Source: Candidatus Elulimicrobium sp.
GTDB lineage: Bacteria > Omnitrophota > Gorgyraeia > Zapsychrales > Fredricksoniimonadaceae
Reading direction: 5' to 3'
Assembly (NCBI GenBank): GCA_020720365.1
Contig: DYOU01000012.1
Span: forward strand, 1 to 36,159
DNA: 36,159 bases
Made by a program: the position numbers and the translations under genes. This document shows positions 33,333 through 36,159 of the stretch, piece after piece (the first letter of the stretch is position 1; each line of letters starts with the position of its first letter). Below the pieces are notes generated by a model. That model searched no databases. It had not been told where the DNA came from and was given only the letters and a program-made list of their open reading frames with translations.

Positions 33333-34799
33333 CTATTCTTCATTATCTCCAAGCTGCTGCTCCACAGGCTTCATTAACGGAAACAGAATAACATCCCGGA
33401 TGCTTGGAGAATTTGTTAGCAACATAACCAGCCGATCGATCCCGATCCCAAGCCCACCTGCGGGAGGCATACCATATTCAAGGGCTCGGACAAAATCTTC
33501 ATCAATACAACGCAAGCCAGTCTCTGTATCATCATGCAGATCTTCCAAAAGGCGTTCACGCTGTTCCTGCGGATCATTCAACTCTGAATAAGCATTCCCT
33601 ACTTCCATGCCCGCGATAAAAAATTCAAAGCGTTTCGACAAAGCCAGATTCTTCGGATCTGTCTTGGCCAACGGGCACAAAAACGTAAAGTAATCCGTAA
33701 AGAATACCGGATCCATGGTAGCATCCTCATCGAGAACTTCCTCAACGATCTTCATGATCGCTGATTTGGTCAAACGATCCAGCTTGTAATAACCCGGACG
33801 CTTGATCTTGACTTTCTCCAACATAATCTCGGCCGAATCATCCGGATTAATATCAAACTTCTCTTTAATAAGCCCCGCAAAACTCACCCGTTTCCATGGC
33901 GTTGTAAAGTCAATCACATATTCTTTGAATTTGACCTTATAATCCCCCGTAATCTCCTTGGCAAGAGAACTAATCAATGTTTCAGTAATGTCCATCATAT
34001 CCTGCATATCTCCATAAGCCTGATAAAGTTCAAGCATGGTAAATTCAGGATTGTGACGGGTTGACACGCCTTCATTACGAAAATTACGATTAATCTCGTA
34101 CACCCGATCCAACCCGCCAACCAACAAACGTTTTAAATACAATTCCGGCGCGATACGAAGAAAAACATCCATATTATAAGCATTATGTTTTGACTGAAAC
34201 GGCCGCCCGCGCGCACCTCCCGCCATCGTCTGCAGCATCGGAGTTTCCACTTCCAGAAAACGACGGCCGTCAAGAAAATTACGAATACAGGAAACGATCC
34301 GGCTGCGTTTAATAAAAACATCACGCACTTCTGGATTCGCGATCATATCTACATACCGCTGACGATAACGGATATCAACGTCTTTTAAACCGTGCCATTT
34401 TTCCGGCAAGCACATCAAGGATTTCGCTAACACAGCAAACTTCTCTACGCGAAGGCTTTGCTGCCCCATCTTGGTGGTGAATAACTTTCCTTCAGCACTG
34501 ATAATATCGCCAATATCAAGTAATTTAAAGACCGCCCACTGTTCCCCTAAAATTGCCTCTTTAAAAAATAACTGCATCCGGCCAGTCTGGTCCATCAAAT
34601 CCAGAAAAAATACTTTTCCGTGATCTCTCATGGCCATGATACGGCCTGCGGTGAACGCCGGCTTTTCTTCAGCAAAACCAGCCAGTACATCGCCAACAGG
34701 TTCTACACCGGTCACCCTCCCGCCATAAGGATCAATGCCCATACTTCTCAAGGAATTTAATTTCTGAATACGGATCTGCTTGATTTCATCAGTTTCCAC
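33333..34799 (-). CDS. lysS: Lysyl-tRNA synthetase, class II
   Basis: 488 aa. An OB-fold anticodon domain (about 45-140) is followed by the class II core: motif 1 near RSRIVSCIRNFLDGRRFLEVETPML, motif 2 RNFRNEGVSTRHNPEFTML, motif 3 GGLGIGIDRLVML. The segment GGARGRPFQSKHNAYNMD differs from the common GGAxARPFxTHHNALD of bacterial LysS. The start is a GTG at 34799, decided by AGGAG 5 nt upstream. First gene of the lysS-lolC-lolD unit, with its own promoter just upstream. The Bacillus cluster also has lysS near mcsA. Confidence 0.94.
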   Translation of the reverse strand: METDEIKQIRIQKLNSLRSMGIDPYGGRVTGVEPVGDVLAGFAEEKPAFTAGRIMAMRDHGKVFFLDLMDQTGRMQLFFKEAILGEQWAVFKLLDIGDIISAEGKLFTTKMGQQSLRVEKFAVLAKSLMCLPEKWHGLKDVDIRYRQRYVDMIANPEVRDVFIKRSRIVSCIRNFLDGRRFLEVETPMLQTMAGGARGRPFQSKHNAYNMDVFLRIAPELYLKRLLVGGLDRVYEINRNFRNEGVSTRHNPEFTMLELYQAYGDMQDMMDITETLISSLAKEITGDYKVKFKEYVIDFTTPWKRVSFAGLIKEKFDINPDDSAEIMLEKVKIKRPGYYKLDRLTKSAIMKIVEEVLDEDATMDPVFFTDYFTFLCPLAKTDPKNLALSKRFEFFIAGMEVGNAYSELNDPQEQRERLLEDLHDDTETGLRCIDEDFVRALEYGMPPAGGLGIGIDRLVMLLTNSPSIRDVILFPLMKPVEQQLGDNEE

Positions 34800-34941: not shown

Positions 34942-36159
34942 TTAACCCACTGACTCCAACTCACGCACATCCCAACGGCGTGCCAGGAAAAGAACTGGCA
35001 ATGTCTCATTCCTGCCTAACCTTAAATCCTGCCTGCCCTCTTCCGTTGAAAAGCCAAGCAATGACCGCCAATTAACCGGCTGTGCCCCTCCCACAGGTAC
35101 CGGTATAAGGCCGCGCAAATCTTTTTGCAACTGTTGAATCTGCACCGGATCAAATGACGGCACGCCTGCTGCATCAGTTGCGATCACCTTTAAATAATTA
35201 CCATGACCAATGTCAATACCACCATATTGTTGTGCGTTATCGACATTGTCATCCCTGTTTAAAACTATTTCTGATAATCTTGAGTTCAAATATTCCACTT
35301 GACGCTCTCTTCCACCCAGATTATTCGTAATAACAAGGTCTCTTATAAAATCAGAATTATCAAGTGAAGACAATATTATCCTTGTCTGTTCCGGATCAAC
35401 AATTAAAACATAAGCCAAAGGTTCTTGACCCTGAACACCAAAACTATACGCGCTTTCAGCCTTCGATTTTCCTGAAGTAAAATTATTACGATGCATCTTC
35501 TGCATAAAAAGCTTGCCTTCAATCAACATATCCTCTATTGGCTGCCATCCGGTATTGGGTACATACAAGTGCGCCAGGACAATCCGATCCTTCTCAACTT
35601 TGCTGATCGCCGCATTATCCACATTAATCACCTCATTCGCGCCCACCGCATCCTGAGCTGCATCAAATATTTCATCAGACTTTATCGCATTCTCAAGAAA
35701 GCGTTTGATCTTTTCCGGTGGATAATTAAAAAACATGGGCCGCATCGTTGTAGTATAAATGGCCGGCCGGTTTGACCCTCTTGCTGGTATTATTGAAAGA
35801 GTACTTTCATAATCGTTATAAACAGCCTTGACCGTATAATTACCTCCGGCTAACGGTATCATCCAAATATCCCCGGACTTCACAATCTTGTCCTGGATAA
35901 TATCCCGACGAACAATTCTTAATAACTGCGCGCGTGAATATTTTCTATCCCCCTCTTCCTGATCCATGGCAGGATCGATCTCTGATTTAATCTGATTCTC
36001 CAGCGTGGTCTTGATTTTCAATGGAAGATAATTAAGAACATATTCATGAATTGTCATGGAATACAAAATGTTTTCTTGCTTCCCGGATGACACCAATTGA
36101 AGCGTACTCTTCTGATCACTAAAAGAAGCAATAACTGTGTGCTGGCCTCCAACTAACGG
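34942..36159 (-). CDS. Unknown protein with about 100-residue repeats (5' end outside window)
   Basis: The frame is open to the window edge; 405 residues of the C-terminal part are visible and the true start lies outside. Not recognised. A repeat is clear: PLVGGQHTVIASFSDQKSTL at the edge (visible residues 1-20) and PLAGGNYTVKAVYNDYESTL (102-121). These are followed by matching segments, FFNYPPEKIKRFLENAIKS against LNYLPLKIKTTLENQIKS. A weaker third unit may start near 203. The spacing is about 101 residues. Two short stretches (NYLPLKIKTTLENQ-like) look amphipathic; there are no cysteines, membrane helix or lipobox in the visible part. A large extracellular or surface repeat protein is possible. 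A terminator follows the stop. Confidence 0.75.
   Translation of the reverse strand, partial: PLVGGQHTVIASFSDQKSTLQLVSSGKQENILYSMTIHEYVLNYLPLKIKTTLENQIKSEIDPAMDQEEGDRKYSRAQLLRIVRRDIIQDKIVKSGDIWMIPLAGGNYTVKAVYNDYESTLSIIPARGSNRPAIYTTTMRPMFFNYPPEKIKRFLENAIKSDEIFDAAQDAVGANEVINVDNAAISKVEKDRIVLAHLYVPNTGWQPIEDMLIEGKLFMQKMHRNNFTSGKSKAESAYSFGVQGQEPLAYVLIVDPEQTRIILSSLDNSDFIRDLVITNNLGGRERQVEYLNSRLSEIVLNRDDNVDNAQQYGGIDIGHGNYLKVIATDAAGVPSFDPVQIQQLQKDLRGLIPVPVGGAQPVNWRSLLGFSTEEGRQDLRLGRNETLPVLFLARRWDVRELESVG

Follow-up and report, generated by a model that had tools for sequence, protein, structure and literature searches.

The protein under the right edge of the window

The window analysed here is the whole of contig C42 (36159 bases) from an assembly of Candidatus Elulimicrobium sp. 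(Omnitrophota), a genome of 1,888,006 bases in 198 contigs that is 85.7% complete. The question raised by its right edge is what kind of protein carries two repeats of about 101 residues, has no family name and is cut by the contig end. Our analysis places this protein in a large family with two constant ends, an N-terminal domain (N-domain) containing the motif WVNLSP and a C-terminal module starting with GGID, between which lies a variable cargo. The repeats are such a cargo, found only in the window protein.

The open reading frame (ORF) lies on the minus strand, with its stop codon at 34942-34944 and no other stop in its 405 amino acids (aa) before the right edge. Since the right edge is on the 5' side, what lies in the window is the C-terminal end of the protein. 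A preliminary description of this DNA had the gene extending beyond the edge, which is correct in so far as the ORF is open there; as C42 stops at this point, the frame cannot be followed further on this contig. The best local alignment of the repeats (residues 1-66 with residues 102-170) scored 122, versus 26.9±4.7 for shuffled sequences (maximum 52), and none of 2000 shuffles scored as high, so that the two units noticed by eye are real. The remainder of the ORF shows no third copy, and a profile of the two units, the search advised in that description, recovered nothing else significant from 3295 stop-to-stop ORFs of the fetched loci (with the window counted three times). The absence of a family name was likewise confirmed, as the ORF has no match in Pfam, NCBIfam or PHROGs, and Pfam detects no adhesion domain in it.

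A shared module at the C-terminus

Used alone as query against 92 related genomes, the window protein matched 13 genomes besides its own, and the 18 matches all fell inside residues 276-387. The module is thus found independently of profile A1, of which the window is itself a row and which it matches with an E value of 1.3e-28. The module is about 60 residues long. In alignment A1 it opens with GGID and closes on a P-V.....V....LLG-like pattern, and every one of the 21 collected proteins has its start within the last 57-116 residues. A hydrophobic helix with a basic tail, as in anchors of the sortase or PEP-CTERM type, is absent from the module tails by inspection. The window module is 61-75% identical to eight modules of other genomes; the remaining modules of its own genome are unlike it. 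Its closest relative (76%) is encoded at L023:5643-6440 (JADFYB010000127.1), in a metagenome-assembled genome titled Nitrospirae, a title that may misstate the lineage.

A constant N-terminal domain behind a signal-like start

The other ends of the module proteins share a signal-like start, an LPxPG motif and then a constant domain of about 310 residues (alignment A2), in which 57 positions are invariant among 14 sequences, including WVNLSP and the SGG of the closing KYFSGG. A hydrophobic signal-like stretch precedes the N-domain in all 50 testable proteins (one more was too short to enter the test). At that threshold, 19.5% of 2000 segments drawn randomly from cargo have such a stretch. Pfam recognizes nothing in either constant end and PDB sequence searches returned chance-level matches only. 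Literature searches, outside which preprints and most subscription papers lay, yielded no description of the WVNLSP domain or the GGID module, and none was met in the accessible parts of PMC10066038, PMC11573180 and PMC11285876. Our searches of Pfam, NCBIfam and PHROGs leave the family unnamed. Its architecture can be given with near certainty: a signal peptide, the WVNLSP domain of about 310 aa ending in KYFSGG, a variable cargo and a GGID module of about 60 aa near the C-terminus.

In the own genome the N-domain profile gave 36 matches, which fall in 35 ORFs; the module profile gave 31 at E<=1 and 29 at E<=0.01. Counted over 27 fetched stretches plus contig C197, both ends score in 25 ORFs, the N-domain only in 10 and the module only in five. 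Among the 10 with the N-domain only, four have a GGID module by eye (L121, L123, L124 and L113, the last beyond the stretch first fetched), L110 has one in an adjacent frame behind a masked run, L106 ends at a contig end, and L116 and L122 contain masked sequence close to the tail, which leaves L125 and L129, short fragments without module. Four of the five with the module only, the window ORF included, lose their 5' end at contig ends and the fifth is the other piece of the frame-split gene L110. Taken stop to stop, the family ORFs amount to 42,289 codons, or 6.7% of the assembly.

At E<=1e-10 the N-domain gave 73 and 25 matches in two genus-mates and 58 in a family-mate; these are matches rather than genes, some genes being split in two. 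In a phylum sample of 145 genomes 37 match at this threshold and 88 have no match. The 37 comprise seven of the own taxonomic family (own genome included), nine of the 10 listed from the order and 21 of the class, the last mostly weaker. In genome G050 the family includes L158 (on C85), which has 5839 codons and is truncated at the contig end, and L159 (on C60), with 5005 codons; some of the group's very large ORFs are thus family members.

Probable start of the window gene

Only one N-domain of the own genome matches the window module in class, and the right end of contig C136 falls inside it: its mean identity is 0.74 to four class-A N-domains versus 0.38-0.54 for 31 others. The genes of C136, putatively rmuC, yfiH, a surA-like gene, hisG, a TPR gene and ispE, stand in the same order in the genus-mate G002, where lysS directly follows ispE; C42 read from its right end begins with the window gene and then lysS. 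From this synteny and the matching class the window gene most likely starts on C136 and runs into C42 at the ispE-lysS site, an assignment strongly supported although the gap from C136:18619 to C42:36159 is still there. About 326 residues from C136 and 405 from the window put about 731 residues in hand, plus the gap. The same site holds no family member in G002.

The odd class of the window module had raised the suspicion that the contig was mis-binned. This was ruled out by the lysS product, which is 89% identical to that of G002 and 88% to that of G001, higher than to every other genome listed. Module-bearing members lie directly upstream of lysS in G006, G014 and G017 (L132, L136 and L138), none was found near lysS in G002, G004, G005 and G010, and the contigs of G001 and G019 end too soon to judge. 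Across relatives the place upstream of lysS holds different members or none, as if it were a hot spot.

The cargo

Cargo in the own-genome N-domain ORFs ranges from 119 to 2315 residues, unscored modules being counted in and short fragments and the cut L106 left out. An all-versus-all BLAST of the cargo revealed L104 and L112 as the one real pair (31% over 467 aa); in addition, two short similarities adjoin the N-domain. We scanned with Pfam every piece of own-genome cargo that reaches 100 aa (36 in all) and interpreted only matches with an individually significant stretch. The matches over the cut-off are listed in Table 1; L042 has an AAA match under its cut-off, and the remaining pieces, the window's included, have no such match. 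In relatives, Pfam detects phosphoglucomutase in two cargoes, a dehydrogenase with LysM, and HATPase; some family proteins match LysM and, weakly, peptidoglycan-binding families.

A second triosephosphate isomerase (TIM) is fused to a GGID module in L127:4282-5148 (C99), its own N-terminal part being lost at the contig end. It is 49% identical over 191 aa to the product of a separate complete TIM gene on C96 of the same genome, which makes the fused TIM an extra copy. It retains the motifs around the catalytic His and Glu.

Table 1 Features of the window gene and its neighbour, and domains detected in other cargo of the same genome
Feature	Position	Strand	Domain content	Basis or remark
C-terminal 405 codons and stop of the two-ended, putatively exported cargo protein	34942..36159	-		5' part lost at contig end
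Cargo, repeat unit 1 (residues 1-101; start may lie before the edge)	35857..36159	-		self-alignment
Cargo, repeat unit 2 (residues 102-205)	35545..35856	-		self-alignment
Remaining cargo (residues 206-311), without relatives found	35227..35544	-		genome and Pfam searches
C-terminal GGID module, class A (residues 312-374)	35038..35226	-		profile A1
C-terminal tail behind the GGID module	34945..35037	-		sequence
lysS-like neighbour	33333..34799	-		fixes site and genus of contig
L103 cargo			HAD hydrolase, APH	Pfam over cut-off
L104 cargo			radical SAM, B12-binding	Pfam over cut-off
L107 cargo			ABC1 kinase, M48 peptidase	Pfam over cut-off
L109 cargo			metallophosphoesterase	Pfam over cut-off
L113 cargo (three ORFs)			SNF2 helicase, mTERF, HEAT	Pfam over cut-off
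L117 cargo			ankyrin	Pfam over cut-off
L118 cargo			response regulator	Pfam over cut-off
L119 cargo			HATPase	Pfam over cut-off
L120 cargo			starch synthase	Pfam over cut-off
L127 cargo			TIM (triosephosphate isomerase)	Pfam over cut-off
L128 cargo			GNAT	Pfam over cut-off

Homologues of the N-terminal domain on Streptomyces plasmids

A tblastn search of 72,556 plasmid records with one N-domain gave six matches, all from Streptomyces, and a Streptomyces query recovered the same six. Four are annotated as 'hypothetical' (WP_121549542.1, WP_331747086.1, WP_266737726.1 and WP_251091514.1) and two are unannotated. Their domain is homologous to the N-domain (hhalign probability 99.8; all four proteins tested gave hidden Markov model E values between 2.8e-29 and 1.5e-48), and in all six it is flanked by GG[IV]DF before and GGVD[LF]S after. 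The parts upstream of it form three groups without similarity between groups past the junction. The proteins have a signal-like start, and their C-terminal end is hydrophobic or sortase-anchor-like, with a sortase-anchor family match just below the cut-off in two of the four scanned. A PDB sequence search with a Streptomyces protein gave no match. Homology of the GGID module to the Streptomyces GG[IV]D segments was considered and not accepted, as hhalign gave a probability of only 13-16% over 6-11 columns for segments picked by motif; it stays a lead.

These plasmid-encoded surface proteins are thus like the Omnitrophota family in their homologous domain, signal-like start and unrelated variable parts. 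They differ in having the variable part before the domain, a hydrophobic or sortase-like C-terminal end, and only short GG[IV]D motifs in place of a C-terminal module.

What the two constant ends may do

Polymorphic toxin and effector systems join a constant export region to interchangeable toxin domains. The WVNLSP/GGID family resembles them in its constant exported region, its unrelated and swappable cargo and its many paralogues per genome. Unlike them, it is constant at both ends with the cargo in the middle, the cargo is mostly enzymes and interaction domains with no toxin recognized by the libraries, and its domains are absent from Pfam, with none given by NCBIfam or PHROGs in the proteins scanned. 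We give an even chance to the reading that the two ends are a polymorphic chassis that delivers variable cargo as an effector outside the cell. Sec would move the protein over the inner membrane, both constant ends would work jointly in export and delivery, and the cargo would act beyond the producing cell, probably within a partner cell or on its surface. In favour of this reading are the joint occurrence of the two ends, the module at the C-terminus of all 21 collected proteins, the signal-like stretch in 50 of 50, the single real pair among the cargoes, the enzymes of cytosolic type and interaction domains that the cargo includes, the extra TIM copy with its active-site motifs, and the homologous Streptomyces domain behind three unrelated kinds of upstream region. 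Pairwise distances of N-domain and module are also correlated (r=0.575, n=38, no permutation of 5000 as high; within the own genome r=0.544, n=24, none of 5000), although the cargoes are unrelated. Delivery into another cell is preferred to display because kinase, helicase and ankyrin cargo fits it better.

A more far-reaching version is possible, and we hold it as a tentative one, distinctly less probable than the chassis as such. In it, a lineage-wide chassis would carry spare, catalytically intact cytosolic enzymes together with regulatory domains into partner or prey cells, the ends would form one folded unit into which the cargo is inserted, and the cargo would be freed at the GG junctions (KYFSGG and GGID); the Streptomyces carrier domain would serve surface proteins with candidate toxins.

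Several observations weigh against delivery by such a chassis. We identified neither a secretion partner nor an immunity gene or a target, the neighbour genes having lacked systematic analysis, and among the 36 own-genome cargo pieces Pfam names no domain as a toxin. The Streptomyces upstream parts presumably resemble deaminases or nucleases, a likeness that rests on sequence motifs and is unconfirmed by Pfam, NCBIfam and PDB, and the GGID module is undetectable in the Streptomyces proteins (best E value 0.17). The 266-aa protein of L023 bears the module without N-domain or signal. Predicted structures are too poor to interpret, with a mean pLDDT (predicted local distance difference test score) of 39 for the N-domain (two sequences) and 35 for the window protein (three sequences). 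Finally, the correlation between N-domain and module distances could also stem from common descent of both ends and is no proof of contact.

The alternative that survives best is display or scaffolding, in which the constant ends would hold diverse enzymes on the surface of the producer or in its periplasm, where these would serve its own metabolism outside the cell or tasks at the envelope. Dockerins gather enzymes in a way that offers a parallel. It is favoured by metabolic-enzyme cargo whose motifs are retained, by the LysM and weak peptidoglycan-binding matches and by the hydrophobic or sortase-anchor-like ends of the Streptomyces relatives, but helicase, ankyrin, response-regulator and kinase cargo has no obvious use outside the own cell and the module shows no anchor segment on inspection, and we regard display as a minority possibility.

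That the family is fast-duplicating, partly dispensable or selfish, its ends driving recombination or riding mobile elements and its cargo captured randomly, appears improbable. The match numbers in the two genus-mates, the presence or absence of a member at the ispE-lysS site, one copy close to a phage tail gene and 12 copies in G001 broken by one element would fit; against this, the signal-like start in 50 of 50 proteins, the 57 invariant N-domain positions in 14 proteins and the long open cargo frames suggest purifying selection. Least probable is that the window ORF ends a giant, adhesin-like repeat protein. The repeats are real and members in other genomes reach 5000-5839 codons, but there are two units only and no Pfam adhesion domain in the 405 available residues. 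Of the 31 N-domain ORFs of the own genome that exceed 400 aa (one counted at 2852 aa), 28 stay under 2020 aa. The tail of a giant gene, as first proposed, is not supported, the repeats being only cargo and the C-terminal module putting the gene in a large family.

Giant Omnitrophota ORFs, defined by a length over 20 kb, are poorly conserved with few annotated domains (PMC10066038), and the proteins described here are likewise large, poorly conserved and poor in annotated domains. The WVNLSP/GGID family, by contrast, is defined by its two ends, which go unmentioned in the accessible part of that paper, and most of its members are far shorter. According to the available text of PMC11285876, type IX secretion cargo shares a conserved C-terminal domain on otherwise unrelated exported proteins, as here, but the present family has a conserved N-domain too. 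A search for SprA matched none of 29 family genomes, but the control genomes gave no match either.

Several percent of a small genome encode this unnamed family, in a lineage whose cell-cell dealings are an open question, and the two ends provide a simple rule by which many of the group's large 'hypothetical' proteins can be annotated. Should the ends prove to be an export chassis, the cargoes would directly list the exports of these uncultured bacteria, with the constant ends as handles for testing the export route.

Mobile elements and viral contigs

In G001 (loci L178-L207) a repeated mobile element sits at the codon junction between W-V and N-L-S-P of many diverged N-domain paralogues. Of 13 copies of its 5' end, 12 lie exactly at this junction, in 12 different N-domain genes; a further 10 contig ends lie at the opposite side, and L197 holds 635 bases of the element. 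It is not an intein, as a stop codon directly follows its 5' end, and it is absent from 28 other genomes of the family. One fragment of its coding end may resemble an IS110-type transposase; a search found a different element.

One N-domain, searched by tblastn, matched none of 50,697 phage records. Among viral contigs the domain was found in one near-identical pair and one other; of three further queries, two gave nothing and the third the same pair. An N-domain gene in L141:18-11498 (IMGVR_UViG_3300031576_000207) is located two genes downstream of one for a phage tail tip (PHROG central tail fiber J, E value 1.4e-146), and this proximity suggests that family members may travel with prophages.
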